Of a stretch of 64,000 bases of DNA, positions 6,575-63,022 are shown piece after piece. Position 1 is the stretch's first letter. Each line of letters begins with the position of its first letter. The DNA is from Mogibacterium sp. (GTDB lineage Bacteria > Bacillota > Clostridia > Peptostreptococcales > Anaerovoracaceae), in NCBI GenBank assembly GCA_017403955.1, contig JAFRDH010000005.1, forward strand, positions 1 to 64,000, in the 5' to 3' direction. A program made the position numbers and the translations under genes. Below the pieces are notes generated by a model. The model worked only from the letters and a program-made list of their open reading frames with translations, was not told where the DNA came from and made no database searches.

Positions 6575-6610
6575 AGTGTGTCAGTGAGAACCGTCCCCCA
6601 GTGACACACT
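6575..6610. repeat. REP-like dispersed repeat, copy 1
   Basis: An imperfect palindrome with AGTGTGTCA and TGACACACT ends around the core AGAACCGTCCCC. Related copies are at 16163-16238 (two), 49270-49300, 52359-52389, 53080-53112 and 62992-63022. The form resembles REP elements mobilised by Y1-type (RAYT) transposases; none is encoded in this window. Confidence 0.8.
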
Positions 6611-15434: not shown

Positions 15435-16157
15435 ATGGCTCCAACACCAACCTATCTTAAAAGCCTGAAGAAAGAATCAGTAGTACAGAGCGTTATCAAC
15501 CGTCTGACCGATGCTATGCGCAATAAGGAATTAAAACCGGGAGATAAGATTCCTCCGGAACCCGAACTTGCGGAGTCACTCGGAGTAGCTCGCAGCAGTG
15601 TAAGAGAAGCAATCAAGATTCTTACATATCTTGGAGTACTCGAGAGCAAGCGTTCAGAAGGTACATTTGTATGCAACGGATATACGGAAAGTATGATAGA
15701 TCCGATGGTATACGGTATTATTCTCAATCAGGATTCATTTGAGAATCTGATGGAGCTCAGAGAGATGACTGAGGCAGGGATGATGCGTCTTGCTATCAAG
15801 CATCACACTGAAGATGAACTCCTTGAACTGGAGAAGCAGCTTGAAGTGATGCGTGATTCGGTCAAAGATCTTGAGGATCCTGTTAAAGCATTCTTCGATG
15901 CAGACGAAACTTTTCATGACCAGATCGCGTTGATGGGCAAAAACCCTATGGCGGATAAGATCAACAGAGTAGTCAGATCTCTGACATATGCAGTTCGTTT
16001 TGAGACTGTTTCAACTATGATCAAAACAGACAGATCGGACGAGCTGATCGATGCACACAGGCAGCTGCTGGAATCAATAAGAAATAATGATGACGACAGC
16101 CTCAGCAAGAAAGTCAGAGGAAGCTACTTCGAAGAAGAACTTTTAGATCATCATTGA
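15435..16157 (+). CDS. GntR-family regulator, FCD subfamily (paralogue)
   Basis: 240 residues when started at ATG 15435 behind AAGGAGA. It is near-identical in layout to the regulator at 11166, with a winged helix in the first 80 residues and an FCD domain after it. Segments such as KESVVQSVINRLTDA and MVYG are shared. Its own operator overlaps the predicted transcription start. It is followed by rpiB, with an inverted pair of REP repeats in the gap. The two paralogues may respond to different ligands or form mixed dimers (inference). Confidence 0.9.
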   Translation: MAPTPTYLKSLKKESVVQSVINRLTDAMRNKELKPGDKIPPEPELAESLGVARSSVREAIKILTYLGVLESKRSEGTFVCNGYTESMIDPMVYGIILNQDSFENLMELREMTEAGMMRLAIKHHTEDELLELEKQLEVMRDSVKDLEDPVKAFFDADETFHDQIALMGKNPMADKINRVVRSLTYAVRFETVSTMIKTDRSDELIDAHRQLLESIRNNDDDSLSKKVRGSYFEEELLDHH

Positions 16158-16162
16158 AAAAA

Positions 16163-16238
16163 TGTGACATCGGGGACGGTTCTCTTTGACACACTTTCAG
16201 GACTAAAGTGTGTCAAAGAGAACCGTCCCCAGTGACAC
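16163..16238. repeat. REP-like repeat pair in inverted orientation, copies 2 and 3
   Basis: Two copies face each other and form one long hairpin: 16163-16197 pairs almost perfectly with 16205-16238 around a 7-nt loop. This is the tail-to-tail arrangement seen in bacterial interspersed mosaic elements. It sits between the GntR stop and the rpiB ribosome binding site. Confidence 0.85.
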
Positions 16239-16255
16239 TCGAAAGGAGATATATA

Positions 16256-16693
16256 ATGAAAATCGCACTTGGAAGTGACCATGCAGCTTATGAACTCAAA
16301 GAGGCTATTAAGGCTAAAATGGAGAGCGAAGGTCATGAAATTATAGATGTAGGTACTTATTCACCGGATTCCGTAGACTATCCTAAGTACGGACATGCAG
16401 TAGGCAGAAAAGTTGCTTCCGGTGAGGCAGAGCGCGGAATCGCAGTTTGCGGCTCAGGAATCGGCATCAGCATTGCATGCAACAAGGTTCCGGGAATCAG
16501 AGCAGCTCTTTGTACATCCGTTGAGATGGCTGAGATGTGCAGAAGACACAACAATGCTAACGTAGTCTGCATGGGAGCAAGAATGATCAGCCAGGAGCTG
16601 GCATTCGCGATCATCGATACATGGATGACTACAGAATTCGAAGGCGGCAAGCATCTTCGCAGAATCAACGAGATTGAAGACCTTGATTTCTAA
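16256..16693 (+). CDS. rpiB: Ribose-5-phosphate isomerase B
   Basis: 145 residues, the usual RpiB length. It interconverts ribose-5-phosphate and ribulose-5-phosphate. The SDHAAYELK segment near residue 8 and the CGSGIGISIACNK active-site loop (catalytic Cys at about residue 66) are intact. ATG 16256 follows AAAGGAGAT. Its position next to the FCD regulator and close to transketolase fits a pentose-phosphate regulon. A related sugar-phosphate isomerase specificity such as allose-6-phosphate cannot be excluded. Confidence 0.93.
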   Translation: MKIALGSDHAAYELKEAIKAKMESEGHEIIDVGTYSPDSVDYPKYGHAVGRKVASGEAERGIAVCGSGIGISIACNKVPGIRAALCTSVEMAEMCRRHNNANVVCMGARMISQELAFAIIDTWMTTEFEGGKHLRRINEIEDLDF

Positions 16694-16705
16694 ACAAATA
16701 GCAAT

Positions 16706-16734
16706 TTGACACGTTTCAGCTTAAGTGATATTAT
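16706..16734 (+). promoter_or_regulatory. Promoter of the tyrS leader transcript
   Basis: Consensus TTGACA (16706-16711), a 17-nt spacer and TATTAT (16729-16734). Transcription should start near 16741, giving a 230-nt leader before tyrS. Confidence 0.8.
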
Positions 16735-16762
16735 CTCAATATATCGATTCTAAGGAGAGAAC

Positions 16763-16828
16763 ATGAACGTTCGCAGACTTGTAGCAGCTATCTATTATTA
16801 TGATAGGACTTCGACGATCGAAGACTAG
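16763..16828 (+). CDS. Leader peptide with Tyr-Tyr-Tyr (tyrS attenuation)
   Basis: A 21-codon frame starting with ATG, preceded by TAAGGAGAG at good spacing and ending in TAG. Residues 11-13 are three consecutive TAT (Tyr) codons at 16793-16801. The stop codon lies 3 nt before a segment (16832-16838) that can act as the 5' arm of an antiterminator. This is the arrangement expected of a ribosome-mediated attenuator that senses charged tRNA-Tyr. It is too short for routine gene calling. Function is inferred from position and codon content, not from homology. Confidence 0.75.
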   Translation: MNVRRLVAAIYYYDRTSTIED

Positions 16829-16831
16829 TTT

Positions 16832-16904
16832 TGCTGCGACAAGACTCAGAATCGATAGTAGATGTTGATTCCAGCTCCGCAGCACAATGCGGAGCTGTTT
16901 TTTT
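16832..16904 (+). terminator. Attenuator: terminator with competing antiterminator, upstream of tyrS
   Basis: The terminator is CAGCTCCGC (16872-16880) with GCGGAGCTG (16889-16897) and seven T. The competing pair is TGCTGCG (16832-16838) with CGCAGCA (16878-16884), which would break the terminator stem. A ribosome at the leader stop codon would cover 16832-16838 and so allow termination. A ribosome stalled on the Tyr codons would leave it free. GCAGC (16784-16788) can also pair with 16833-16837. No T-box sequence is present. Confidence 0.75.
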
Positions 16905-16969
16905 CAACCAATCGATGAAATTGCAGAGGATCGACTGCACAAGAACAACGAAAGGAAAGGGAAGTATCG

Positions 16970-18304
16970 ATGAAGAATTTAATTCCTGACAGTGTCAGTG
17001 AACACACCAATGTATATGACGTCCTGATGGAAAGAGGACTGATCGAGCAGACCACTAACGGTGAGGCTCTGAGAGAACTGCTCGGCAAAGAGAAGATCAA
17101 GTTCTATATAGGATTTGACCCGACTGCAGATTGTCTGCATGTAGGACATTTCATTCCTATGATCACCATGATGTATATGCAGAAGTATGGTCACACTCCG
17201 GTATTCCTTCTCGGCGGCGGCACCGGTGAGATCGGTGACCCATCCGGAAGAAGTGACATGCGTCAGGTAATGACTATAGATACTATCGACTATAACTGCA
17301 GACAGTTCAAGAAACTCTTCGAGAGATTCATTGACTTCGACGATGAGTGGAAATACGAAGGAAACGAGGGTGTTTACAAGCCTGGTCATCAGAACAGAGA
17401 GCCAAAGCCTGGCTACGCTGTAAGTGTTAACAACGCTGAGTGGATCAGACCTGCTAAGTTCACCGAGTTTGCAAGAGAGATCGGAAGACACTTCAACGTC
17501 AACACAATGCTCAGAGCAGACGCATTCAAGACCAGAATGGACAGAGACGAGGGACTTTCATTCTTCGAATTCTCATACATGTTGCTGCAGGCTTATGACT
17601 TCATGGTAATGGCAAGAGACTTCGATCTTAAGGCGCAGTTCGGCGGAAACGACCAGTGGTCCAACATCATCGCAGGTGTTGATCTGACAAGAAAGACCTG
17701 CGGCAAGGAAGTATTCGGTCTGACAGTTTCCCTGCTGACGACCAGCGAAGGAATCAAGATGGGTAAGACAGCTAAGGGCGCTCTCTGGCTTGACGAATCA
17801 AAATGCCCTGTATACGACTTCTTCCAGTACTGGAGAAACGTTGCTGACGCAGACGTCAATAAGTGCCTGAGAATGCTCACATTCCTGCCAATGAGCGAAG
17901 TCAACAGACTTTCCGCTCTTGAGGGCTCTGCAATCAACGAAGCTAAAGAAGTTCTTGCTTACGAAGTAACCAAGCTGGTACACGGAGAAGAGAAGGCTAA
18001 GCAGGCTCTCGAGACCAGCCGTCAGATTTTCGCAGGCGGCGGAGTTTCCGACGATATGCCTACAGCTGAGATCGAGAAAGCTAAGTTCGAAGGCGATGGA
18101 ATGGGACTTGCTGCGCTTCTCAAGGAAGCAGGACTTGAGCCATCCACATCCGAGGCGTTCAGAACTATCCAGTCCGGCGGCGCAAGGATCAATGGCGAGC
18201 AGATCACAGATAAGAAGTTCGCTGTAACTCTTGACTGCTTCAAGGATGGAGAACTTATCCTCCAGAAGGGCAAGAAAAAATTCAAGAAGATCGTACTCAA
18301 GTAG
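16970..18304 (+). CDS. tyrS: Tyrosyl-tRNA synthetase
   Basis: 444 residues. Class I synthetase of the TyrRS type that charges tRNA-Tyr. The HIGH-like motif is HVGHF near residue 58 and the KMSKS-like loop is KMGKT. The C-terminal S4-like RNA-binding domain (GGARINGEQITDKKF) is complete. The start follows a GGAAAGGGAAG site. The leader contains a Tyr-codon peptide and terminator instead of the T-box usual for Firmicutes. Confidence 0.96.
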   Translation: MKNLIPDSVSEHTNVYDVLMERGLIEQTTNGEALRELLGKEKIKFYIGFDPTADCLHVGHFIPMITMMYMQKYGHTPVFLLGGGTGEIGDPSGRSDMRQVMTIDTIDYNCRQFKKLFERFIDFDDEWKYEGNEGVYKPGHQNREPKPGYAVSVNNAEWIRPAKFTEFAREIGRHFNVNTMLRADAFKTRMDRDEGLSFFEFSYMLLQAYDFMVMARDFDLKAQFGGNDQWSNIIAGVDLTRKTCGKEVFGLTVSLLTTSEGIKMGKTAKGALWLDESKCPVYDFFQYWRNVADADVNKCLRMLTFLPMSEVNRLSALEGSAINEAKEVLAYEVTKLVHGEEKAKQALETSRQIFAGGGVSDDMPTAEIEKAKFEGDGMGLAALLKEAGLEPSTSEAFRTIQSGGARINGEQITDKKFAVTLDCFKDGELILQKGKKKFKKIVLK

Positions 18305-44958: not shown

Positions 44959-45098
44959 TGGCGAAGTAGGGCGCAGCGCGTCAAGTGCCGCAGGATGGGA
45001 AGTTGCCTGCGGACGAAGGGTCTCCGGTCAGCATTATGATCCGGCCCGCGGTGCTGCATCCGCATCCGTTGCCACACAGGGAGACTTCTTCCGTGGCA
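44959..45098 (+). promoter_or_regulatory. Tetrahydrofolate riboswitch (THF-I) of folT
   Basis: The aptamer runs from 44959 to 45074. Landmarks in order are GAAGTAG, GCGTCAAGTG, GGATGGGAAGTTG, GGACGAAGG and CGCGGTGCTGCATCCGC, which match the THF-I consensus. P1 is TGGC (44959-44962) with GCCA (45071-45074). The 3' P1 strand can instead pair as TGCCAC (45070-45075) with GTGGCA (45093-45098), a plausible expression platform. The downstream gene is a folate transporter, as expected. The remaining 45099-45147 holds only the ribosome binding site. Confidence 0.88.
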
Positions 45099-48141: not shown

Positions 48142-49440
48142 ATGAAACTGAATGAAGCAATCGAATATATAAACTCTAAAACCTGGAGCCAGTGGCGGCT
48201 TGGTCTTGGCAGGACGTTTGAACTTCTGCGCAAAGTCGGCGACCCGCAGAAAGAGCTGAGGTTCGTGCATGTAGCAGGGACCAACGGCAAAGGCTCGACT
48301 TGCGCGATGCTCGAATCTATCCTCAGAGCCAGCGGATACAAGACCGGAATGTATCCTTCACCTTTTATCGAAGAATTCACCGAGAGGATACAGGTGAACG
48401 GAGTTCCTATCACCGATGACGCGCTCTGCGAACTCACTGAGATCGTCAAAGAAGCTGCGGACTCTATGGATGACCATCCGTCGCAGTTCGAAATAATCAC
48501 GACGATCGGCATGCTGTATTTTGCGCGAATGAAGTGCGATTTAGTCGTGCTGGAAGTCGGCCTCGGCGGAACGTATGACTCGACGAATGTCATCGAATCG
48601 CCGGATGTCTGCGTCATTACAAACATCGGGTTCGACCATACGGAATACCTCGGCAGGACGCTCGCTGAGATCACTTCGTCCAAAGCCGGCATCATCAAGC
48701 CGGGCGCGGATGTTGTTGCATACCCGAATGTCCCTGAAGTCATGAATGTGATCAAAAGTGTGTGCGATGAGAAAGGCTGCAGACTGACAGTTGCGGATTT
48801 TGAAGATATCAGCATTCTCGGAGCAGATCTGACGGCGCAGCATCTCAGATGGCGCGGCAAAATGGATCTCGATCTCCCGCTTGTCGGCGAATATCAGGCG
48901 CGTAATGTCGCAGTCGTACTGACCGCTATAGACGCCCTTATAGAACGCGGATGGAATATAACAGAAGACTCGATCCGCAGTGGCCTCGCTGCAGTAAAAT
49001 GGCCTGCAAGATTCGAAGTAATGGGCACCGACCCGGTATTCATACTCGACGGTGGACACAACCTTCAGTGTGCTGAAGCAGTAGCCGAGTCACTCCGCAA
49101 ATTCTTTCCGGATGGCGGTCTGACACTCCTTATAGGCATGCTGGCTGACAAAGACTACATGTCGGTCCTGCATACGCTTCTGCCATTTGCTGCTAAATGC
49201 TGCTGCGTCACACCGGACTCAGACCGAGCCCTCCCTGCCGCCGAACTCGCCCGGATCGTGTCAACGGATGTGTCACTGGGGACGGTTCTTTCTGACACAC
49301 TTCCGGCAGCCGCTTTCGATTCTGTGGAAGAGGCAGTACGCGAGTGCATCAGCGGCACAGCGCCGGTGCTCGCGTTCGGATCGCTGTATATGGCAGGCGA
49401 GGTCCGTAAAGCATATAGAAAACTGACGGGCAGAAACTGA
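48142..49440 (+). CDS. folC: Folylpolyglutamate synthase / dihydrofolate synthase
   Basis: 432 residues. A Mur-ligase-type enzyme that adds glutamate to folates. The ATP loop VAGTNGKGST is at about residue 52, and GGTYDSTNVIES and ILDGGHNLQCAEA are present. A REP-like repeat (49270-49300) lies in frame near residue 377 and encodes part of a variable loop (VSLGTVLSDTL), apparently tolerated. Start behind GCAGG. Confidence 0.92.
   Translation: MKLNEAIEYINSKTWSQWRLGLGRTFELLRKVGDPQKELRFVHVAGTNGKGSTCAMLESILRASGYKTGMYPSPFIEEFTERIQVNGVPITDDALCELTEIVKEAADSMDDHPSQFEIITTIGMLYFARMKCDLVVLEVGLGGTYDSTNVIESPDVCVITNIGFDHTEYLGRTLAEITSSKAGIIKPGADVVAYPNVPEVMNVIKSVCDEKGCRLTVADFEDISILGADLTAQHLRWRGKMDLDLPLVGEYQARNVAVVLTAIDALIERGWNITEDSIRSGLAAVKWPARFEVMGTDPVFILDGGHNLQCAEAVAESLRKFFPDGGLTLLIGMLADKDYMSVLHTLLPFAAKCCCVTPDSDRALPAAELARIVSTDVSLGTVLSDTLPAAAFDSVEEAVRECISGTAPVLAFGSLYMAGEVRKAYRKLTGRN
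49270..49300. repeat. REP-like repeat, copy 4, inside folC
   Basis: GTGTCACTGGGGACGG followed by TTCTTTCTGACACAC, in reverse orientation to copy 1. It keeps the folC frame open. Confidence 0.85.
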
Positions 49441-51121: not shown

Positions 51122-52384
51122 ATGAGTCTAAACAATACGCCTTCCGGCGAAAGAGTGCATATAGGGATTTTCGGCAAGCGCAATGCCGGCAAATCAAGCG
51201 TTATCAATGCTTTGACCGGCCAGAATCTGGCGATCGTATCCGACGTTCTCGGAACGACGACCGACCCGGTCCAGAAAGCGATGGAGCTTTTGCCGCTCGG
51301 ACCGGTCATGATGATCGACACTCCGGGCCTTGATGATGAAGGCGAACTCGGCGAGCTCCGCATCAGAAAAGCATACCAGATGCTGAATAAGAGTGATATC
51401 GCCCTGCTTGTAGTGGACGGATGCGTGGGATTTACGGATGAGGACCTGAGGATCCTGCGCCGCATCCTGGACAAGAAGATCCCGTACGTCATTGTGCTGA
51501 ATAAAGGCGATCTTGTACCTGATGAAAACAAAGACAAAGTGGTCGGTGATCTCAAGGCGTACATGGCGGCTTCTCCGGAAGGATACGATACTGATGCGCT
51601 GCGTATCATGTGGGTCAGCGCGACAGACAAGACGAACATCCACGAACTCAAGGATCTTATCGCCTCGCTGGCGCCGACTGACGATCCGAACCACAGGATC
51701 GTTGCCGATCTGCTTCAGCCGGACGATCTGGTGATCCTCGTAGTTCCGATCGACAAAGCCGCCCCGAAGGGCAGGCTGATTTTGCCGCAGCAGCAGACTA
51801 TACGCGACATACTCGAGGCGGACGCTGTTGCTATGGTCGTCAAAGAGAATGGATATAAGGAAGTCTTCAATTCGCTCGCCAAAAAGCCGAGGCTCGTCAT
51901 CACTGACAGTCAGGTATTCAAACGTGTTGCGATGGAGACACCTGCGGATATTCCGTTCACTTCTTTCTCGGTGCTGTTCGCGCGCTACAAAGGCGAGCTT
52001 GACAGTCTGGTAGAAGGAGCCCATGCGCTCACAGAGCTTCGTGACGGGGATACCATCCTTATCTCAGAAGGGTGCACCCATCACAGGACCTGCGAGGACA
52101 TCGGCACTGTCAAGATACCAAGGTGGATCAGAGAATATACAGGAAAGGATATCAATATCGAGTTCACAAGCGGTACCGAATTCCCTCTCGATCTCGAGAA
52201 ATACAGCCTGATCGTCCATTGCGGCGGATGCATGCTCAACGAGCGCGAAATGAAATACAGGATCAAATGCGCAGCCGATGCAGGCGTCCCGATGACCAAC
52301 TACGGCACCGCCATCGCCCACATGAACGGCATCCTCGACAAAAGCCTCGAAGTTTTTCGTGTCACCGGGGACGGTTCTTTCTGA
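51122..52384 (+). CDS. hydF: [FeFe]-hydrogenase maturation GTPase HydF
   Basis: 420 residues. N-terminal GTPase domain (P-loop GKRNAGKS at 18-25, TPGLDDEGEL, NKGD), a dimerisation domain, and a C-terminal [4Fe-4S] domain with CTHH and HCGGC ligands. It is the scaffold on which the H-cluster 2Fe subunit is built, so the cell should have [FeFe]-hydrogenase. The last eight residues (RVTGDGSF) and the TGA stop come from a REP-like repeat, replacing the native tail. Confidence 0.95.
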   Translation: MSLNNTPSGERVHIGIFGKRNAGKSSVINALTGQNLAIVSDVLGTTTDPVQKAMELLPLGPVMMIDTPGLDDEGELGELRIRKAYQMLNKSDIALLVVDGCVGFTDEDLRILRRILDKKIPYVIVLNKGDLVPDENKDKVVGDLKAYMAASPEGYDTDALRIMWVSATDKTNIHELKDLIASLAPTDDPNHRIVADLLQPDDLVILVVPIDKAAPKGRLILPQQQTIRDILEADAVAMVVKENGYKEVFNSLAKKPRLVITDSQVFKRVAMETPADIPFTSFSVLFARYKGELDSLVEGAHALTELRDGDTILISEGCTHHRTCEDIGTVKIPRWIREYTGKDINIEFTSGTEFPLDLEKYSLIVHCGGCMLNEREMKYRIKCAADAGVPMTNYGTAIAHMNGILDKSLEVFRVTGDGSF

Positions 52385-53079: not shown

Positions 53080-53112
53080 GTGTGTCATGAAGAACCGTCC
53101 CCAATGACACAC
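53080..53112. repeat. REP-like repeat, copy 6
   Basis: GTGTGTCATGAAGAACC followed by GTCCCCAATGACACAC, just upstream of the 5-formyl-THF cyclo-ligase ribosome binding site. A partial extra CCAATGACAC follows. Confidence 0.85.
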
Positions 53113-62991: not shown

Positions 62992-63022
62992 ATGAGTCAA
63001 AGAGAACCGTCCCTATTGACAC
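62992..63022. repeat. REP-like repeat, copy 7 (diverged)
   Basis: ATGAGTCAAAGAGAACC followed by GTCCCTATTGACAC; the left arm has changed (GAGTCA for GTGTCA). Confidence 0.8.

Follow-up and report, generated by a model that had tools for sequence, protein, structure and literature searches.

A tyrosine-codon leader before tyrS of Mogibacterium sp. as a probable trp-type attenuator, with related leaders before other aromatic genes of the family

We analysed a 64,000-nt stretch of DNA from the rumen bacterium Mogibacterium sp. (assembly GCA_017403955.1, contig JAFRDH010000005.1, positions 1 to 64,000 of the forward strand), called here the window. In it tyrS, the gene of tyrosyl-tRNA synthetase, is preceded by a leader with its own promoter, a short frame with three consecutive tyrosine codons and an intrinsic terminator. 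An initial annotation, made from the sequence alone, had read this leader as a leader-peptide attenuator standing in place of a T-box. The elements of the leader, followed by the genes upstream of it, are as follows.

16706-16734, + strand: sigma-70-type promoter of the tyrS transcript, TTGACA-17-TATTAT, 11/12 consensus; TG precedes the second hexamer
16752-16757, + strand: ribosome binding site of the leader peptide, AAGGAG, recognized from sequence, 5 nt upstream of the ATG at 16763; similar sites in relatives
16763-16828, + strand: leader peptide gene MNVRRLVAAIYYYDRTSTIED, 21 codons, ATG to TAG (stop codon 16826-16828); frame-keeping gaps in relatives
16778-16788, + strand: segment 1, the 5′ arm of the protector helix 1:2, within codons 6-9
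16793-16801, + strand: the three putative regulatory tyrosine codons
16809-16823, + strand: hairpin CTTCGA / TCGAAG right behind the tyrosine codons, nested within helix 1:2; both-sided changes in 5/5 pairs among 31 leaders
16832-16843, + strand: segment 2, partner of segment 1 (protector) or, through 16832-16838, of segment 3 (antiterminator)
16849-16871, + strand: hairpin separating segments 2 and 3, GAATCGATA / TGTTGATTC; several relatives have hairpins with other pairing in its place
16872-16904, + strand: intrinsic terminator, stem 16872-16897 followed by a run of seven T (16898-16904); its 3′ arm is segment 4
16878-16884, + strand: segment 3, CGCAGCA, upper part of the terminator 5′ arm plus loop
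16970-18304, + strand: tyrS, tyrosyl-tRNA synthetase, 444 aa, the putatively regulated gene (TIGR00234, 407 bits versus a cut-off of 113.8)
16256-16690: rpiB, upstream of the tyrS leader
15435-16154: gene of a GntR/FCD regulator, upstream of rpiB

The promoter, ribosome binding site, 21-codon frame, tyrosine codons and terminator all lie where the initial annotation had placed them, as does the antiterminator pairing, in which TGCTGCG (16832-16838) is the complement of CGCAGCA (16878-16884). The arrangement goes beyond chance: the leader RNA folds 3.5 standard deviations below 200 dinucleotide shuffles, and the in-frame gaps and covariation described below point the same way. Segment 2 begins 3 nt past the leader stop codon. 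The earlier suggestion that GCAGC (16784-16788) could sequester the antiterminator arm proved right in a larger form. This pentamer pairs with GCTGC (16833-16837) as part of a protector helix that extends to 10/11 pairs (16778-16788 with 16833-16843) and surrounds the tyrosine codons and the small hairpin 16809-16823. With the GCAGC arm forming one side of this longer helix, a complete trp-type three-way switch can be drawn; judged from the sequence, the layout is that of a trp-type attenuator, fuller than first described. A 10-bp pairing of the 5′ end (16742-16751 with 16848-16857), also claimed earlier, is strong in the window (z -3.2) but not conserved (mean z -1.05 over 16 leaders), and was dropped as a conserved part.

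We consider it very probable that the tyrS leader is a trp-type ribosome-mediated transcription attenuator sensing charged tRNA-Tyr, with related leaders before aromatic genes in the family. A ribosome would translate the 21-codon frame as RNA polymerase moves along the leader. With plentiful Tyr-tRNA the ribosome would reach the stop codon and cover segment 2, so that segments 3 and 4 would form the terminator and the transcript would end near 16904. If Tyr-tRNA is short, the ribosome would wait on the three tyrosine codons, covering segment 1; segment 2 would then pair with segment 3 while segment 4 is still to be made, so that the terminator would fail to form and tyrS would be transcribed. 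Without translation of the frame, pairing of segments 1 and 2 would favour termination. The predicted ribosome geometry is as a trp-type attenuator requires, with the position on the tyrosine codons covering segment 1 and that on the stop codon covering segment 2 (weakly so at the relatives' loci L028, L078 and L179; loci and genomes carry our L and G numbers). The evidence is comparative and computed: the comparison supports the frame, the codons, the helices and the gene associations, and from it we infer the stalling of the ribosome, the kinetics and the direction of the in vivo response.

A contig scan for tyrS, of which the best 80 of 164 loci were kept, gave as closest named relatives rumen metagenome-assembled genomes labelled Mogibacterium or Clostridiales. 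A Tyr-Tyr-Tyr frame with a TTGACA promoter precedes tyrS at 18 of the 80 loci, and L008 was added by the RNA model. The count of 18 is a lower bound because some loci (L030, L056) have short upstream sequence. A tyrosine run upstream of the L025 tyrS was rejected as a leader, being part of the preceding gene. An exact TTGACA with a spacer of 17 or 18 nt stands before the leader frame in 19/19 tyrS leaders examined. In an alignment of 13 tyrS leaders all eight gaps within the frame are multiples of three, versus 4 of 32 outside it (gaps shared by descent were counted once per row). Variation is higher at third codon positions (0.39) than at first (0.24) and second (0.22), and in the tyrosine codons of the aligned leaders it is confined to the third position. 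These codons read only TAT or TAC in 16/16 distinct tyrS leaders, a conservation that is partly by choice because the leaders were picked for their tyrosine run; L008 and L154, tyrS leaders obtained from the RNA model without a tyrosine condition, both have Tyr-Tyr-Tyr. In the more distant L080 (the cultured Mogibacterium kristiansenii) and L028 the layout is unchanged but the peptide differs (HKQAYYYLF). The segment preceding the tyrosine run covaries with segment 2, altering the amino acids (GCAGCA to AACAAC in L078, whose peptide reads NNNNYYYY). Since segment 1 changes jointly with segment 2 while the peptide changes, it is the pairing, not the peptide, that is kept.

In a tree of 75 of the 81 tyrS proteins (six were too short and left out), the leader falls into one supported clade of 32 rows: 16 carry it, three hold a remnant (the terminator without the frame) and 13 lack it. 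At least five changes of the leader label are needed on this tree, so the element is old in the clade and was lost more than once. Decayed attenuators, with the terminator hairpin retained and the leader frame gone, stand before tyrS at L009, L010 and L013. At L008 about 1.9 kb with other frames (L008:309-2241), possibly an insertion, separates an intact attenuator from tyrS.

Covariation was counted on the termination-state structure. Among the 13 tyrS leaders, 11 of 29 pairs have both-sided changes, in 19 cells versus 6.7 in shuffles, and 0/500 shuffles were as high on any of five measures. With 31 leaders, in an alignment that was fitted to the model and so leans towards its own structure, the counts are 22 of 29 pairs and 118 cells versus 46 shuffled; 0/500 shuffles were as high on four measures and 5/500 for further pair types. 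In this set both-sided changes occur in 4 of the 7 pairs of helix 1:2, as well as throughout the hairpin behind the tyrosine codons.

The switch was computed on transcripts cut before the 3′ terminator arm, with the ribosome footprint held unpaired, for 50 leaders (three of 53 were not parsed). The expected number of antiterminator pairs is 11.7 with the ribosome on the first tyrosine codon, 11.1 on the last, 2.1 on the stop codon and 5.8 without a ribosome. Pairing is higher with a stalled ribosome than with one on the stop codon in 49/50 leaders, and higher than with no ribosome in 47/50. In a control in which the segment from the tyrosine run to the terminator was shuffled, the corresponding values are 6.0, 5.5, 3.0 and 3.7. 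For the leader of the window they are 10.7, 10.7, 0.4 and 7.2.

The first covariance model, built from the 13 tyrS leaders and run on 349 genomes of the window's family, found matches in 54 of them at E up to 0.01, with weaker matches before other genes. A second model, R2, built from 31 leaders, matched 113 of the 349 at E up to 0.001. On genomes of the order, R2 matched 86/393 at E up to 0.01; 81 of the 86 belong to the window's family, and the five outside it all have matches at E 6.5e-4 or weaker. By these searches the putative attenuator regulon is found essentially only in the window's family.

We read 104 leader places, which are model hits, not a random sample. NCBIfam gave the gene type behind a few of them; the others were typed by phmmer comparison with five reference proteins. 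The genes are tyrS (18), a gene of the tryptophanase/tyrosine phenol-lyase (TPL) family, called here the lyase (20, broken at L243), aroF (44, found by script at 43 places plus L170, and usually with tyrA next), tyrA alone (3) and a TrpX-type binding protein (L171). Another eight places are followed by other genes or a contig end; one of these, L188, seems to be a chance frame. The remaining 10 have no aromatic frame. Phenylalanine codons occur in the contiguous run of 40/44 aroF leaders and of none of the 18 tyrS, 19 lyase, three tyrA and one TrpX leaders; L243, with the run YYYYYFF, was left out of this count because its lyase gene is broken. For aroF (40/44) versus tyrS plus lyase (0/37) Fisher's test gives p = 7e-19, uncorrected for kinship. 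The 3-deoxy-D-arabino-heptulosonate 7-phosphate (DAHP) synthase serves tyrosine and phenylalanine alike, tyrS tyrosine only. That the codon run follows the gene is the strongest sign that the codons may be the sensor. The best reading of these leaders is that the one at tyrS would be a member of a family-wide aromatic amino acid regulon comprising the lyase, aroF-tyrA, tyrA and a TrpX-type transporter. A search of the window's own genome with a relative's aroF protein found no match, and one with a TrpX relative gave weak matches only.

Among the other leader places, two of genome G061 (L175 and L173) have tyrosine-run leaders with terminators before the genes of an AP-endonuclease-like TIM barrel protein and an HD-domain protein, which have no evident tie to tyrosine. 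The sodium:solute symporter (PF00474) behind the YYYFYF leader of L251 and L257 may be a carrier of aromatic amino acids.

The leader MTKIRVNTAKYYYYYYRSSSGCFAVRSRQVMN and a terminator precede the lyase gene of the own genome (G000:C19:21123-22568); R2 found this leader at E 8.4e-12 without having been trained on it. The lyase of a relative (L160) scores above the cut-off of the tryptophanase/TPL subfamily model, but below those of the TPL and TnaA equivalogs. The closest solved relatives of the lyase are tyrosine phenol-lyases, and the alignment has MERG, FTT and RFFT kept at what we take to be the positions of the TPL substrate residues. The gene is present in 25 of 47 genus genomes. Upstream sequence of 600 nt or more is available for 22 of these genes, and a tyrosine-run leader precedes all 22 (21 found by script, and L285 with a TTG start). 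Outside the genus, four lyase genes were found; none of the three with 600 nt upstream has a leader. Six genomes of the genus have both the lyase and a DAHP synthase (PF00793), 19 only the lyase, 15 only the DAHP synthase and seven neither, a mutual avoidance with p = 0.0034, uncorrected for kinship and genome completeness. In the own genome a search for the DAHP synthase family gave no match. At L243 (G005:C14) the broken lyase gene still lies behind a tyrosine-run leader, in a genome that has a DAHP synthase.

Several observations weigh against an attenuator of the kind proposed. Among the 13 closest leaders no pair of helix 1:2 has changed on both sides; such changes appear only in the wider, model-fitted set. 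Helix 2:3 has none either, though 94.2% of its cells are paired in the 13 leaders; this is as expected for an arm with two partners. Placing the ribosome on the stop codon barely lowers antiterminator pairing at L028, L078 and L179, and several leaders (including L005, L007 and L011) favour the antiterminator without a ribosome, so that the no-translation state is not uniformly ‘off’. In the full-length equilibrium with the ribosome on the tyrosine codons, the terminator is still the minimum in 13 of 16 leaders, that of the window included, and the antiterminator in 3 of 16; the switch must therefore depend on timing, as known attenuators also do. The absence of the leader in 13 of the 32 clade rows, read as loss, and its three remnants make it dispensable. 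Finally, a starvation switch fits poorly before a lyase that would normally degrade tyrosine: either the lyase runs in the direction of synthesis, or its leader and the tyrS leader are not read in the same way.

Firmicutes tyrS genes are usually under T-box control, and a Tyr-specific T-box riboswitch, in which the leader RNA itself binds uncharged tRNA-Tyr, has to be considered the more as T-boxes exist in the genus. In the own genome a TrpB-like gene and thrS are each preceded by a T-box match (E 4.8e-16 and 1.1e-15), neither of which reaches the Rfam gathering score. At least one match was found in 36 of the 47 genus genomes (above the gathering score in three), at thrS, the trpB-like gene and asnB, one asnB-type locus (L113) being named by a hidden Markov model. 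None of the T-box places of the 47 genomes lies on a tyrS contig, as checked by eye with strict filters that may lose weak ones. The window has no T-box at Rfam gathering thresholds, nor has the interval 16690-16990 at E up to 10, and a conserved, apparently translated frame with tyrosine codons is foreign to T-boxes. We regard a T-box here as the least probable alternative, barely conceivable on these data. With the frame and its tyrosine codons kept in relatives, the alternative helices kept, those of the terminator state covarying, and no T-box detected, the initial annotation's interpretation is supported. A general move of the own genome to leader peptides was also considered and rejected: pheS, the only other synthetase gene checked there, has a promoter but no leader frame.

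The remaining alternatives differ in what the peptide does. If the nascent peptide sensed free tyrosine and stalled when it is abundant, as in TnaC-like arrest, the genes would be induced by excess tyrosine. Such a mode would better fit a degradative lyase, before which the leader stands in every genus case with enough upstream sequence, and AAEYYYYYY does recur as a peptide motif. However, the residues preceding the tyrosine run vary with compensation in segment 2 (NNNN in L078, HKQA in L028 and L080), the run ranges from 3 to 8 tyrosines, the codons become tyrosine plus phenylalanine at aroF, and the element is shared by tyrS and biosynthesis genes, for which a rise with excess tyrosine is not expected. 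No peptide sequence kept independently of the RNA pairing, the mark of a TnaC-like leader, was found, the residues changing along with segment 2. Arrest of this kind therefore seems to us improbable. Still less credit is due to a constitutive promoter with an ordinary terminator, a fortuitous small frame and no regulation at all. Several close relatives without the leader, or with nothing left of it but the terminator (L009, L010, L013), would suit it, but the frame-keeping gaps, the covariation, the ties of tyrosine-run leaders to tyrosine genes in many genomes and the codon content that follows the gene all argue for a regulatory element, and we return to attenuation by a translating ribosome.

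Taken as a label of what a gene serves, the codon run suggests that the lyase, ambiguous in its family scores, has tyrosine as its substrate. We tentatively put forward a joint proposal, which we would rather expect to fail somewhere than to hold in all its parts. One mobile leader-peptide attenuator would have replaced the aromatic T-boxes in the family, its run tuned for each gene (tyrosine only at tyrS, tyrA, the lyase and the transporter; tyrosine plus phenylalanine at aroF-tyrA). The genus lyase behind its leader of 5-8 tyrosines would make tyrosine from phenol, pyruvate and ammonia, switched on by tyrosine starvation in genomes without DAHP synthase. The attenuator reading by itself already has ribosome-based sensing serve a whole aromatic regulon of one Bacillota family where T-boxes are usual, in genomes that keep T-boxes for threonine, for a TrpB-like enzyme and, in some, for asparagine. 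The exchange of sensors can be tested on close relatives with intact, decayed or no leaders, and the question is raised whether the lyase makes rather than breaks tyrosine.

Elsewhere in the window, a 34-nt inverted repeat (91% complementary, arms 7 nt apart) lies between the GntR gene and rpiB at 16164-16238. Its end, GGGGACGGTTCTC, occurs in seven copies in the window at no more than one mismatch, 0.04 being expected; further sites are 6586-6598, 49278-49290, 52367-52379, 53090-53102 and 63002-63014. The repeat looks like a small mobile repeat. At L007 a related inverted repeat lies between the attenuator and tyrS (L007:2898-2981). A tetrahydrofolate (THF) riboswitch was found at 44960-45073 (Rfam RF01831, 78.9 bits).

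The trp, his and pheST attenuators of enterobacteria are the classical systems, and pheST, too, is a tRNA synthetase operon under an attenuator. Here tyrosine would be sensed in a Bacillota host and the element is shared by tyrS, the lyase, aroF-tyrA and a transporter; sequence kinship was neither tested nor seen. Bacillus tyrS is under a T-box riboswitch: the gene, the signal (charging of tRNA-Tyr) and the terminator/antiterminator outcome are the same, but there the RNA itself binds tRNA, whereas here the sensor would be the translating ribosome.

Regular leader-peptide attenuators where T-boxes are usual, as at our tyrS, have been described for histidine. In bacilli, hisZ and a hisS paralogue are reported to have His leader peptides, ‘regular’ leader peptides that replace Firmicutes T-boxes (PMC2965389), and His attenuators are reported for the his operons of Eubacteriales, Erysipelotrichales and the B. 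cereus group (PMC9413887). These studies concern histidine, other families and single pathways, whereas here one element spans charging, synthesis, a lyase and transport. A synthetase gene or aroF behind a short cognate-codon frame and a terminator also has parallels in two further papers: candidate trpS and leuS attenuators in Streptomyces (PMC1262725), and candidate cysS attenuators in Rhodobacterales and a Phe-run upstream frame before aroF of Acholeplasma (PMC8632094). These parallels concern other amino acids and lineages, and the Acholeplasma aroF element as described there has phenylalanine codons only.

In open-access papers we found no Tyr leader peptide for tyrS or the lyase, nor the tyrosine specificity, the regulon or a lyase under apparent starvation control; subscription papers were mostly outside this search, so the absence is weak evidence. 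Set beside these systems, the mechanism is classical, and the tyrosine specificity, the family-wide tuned regulon and the lyase are the new part.
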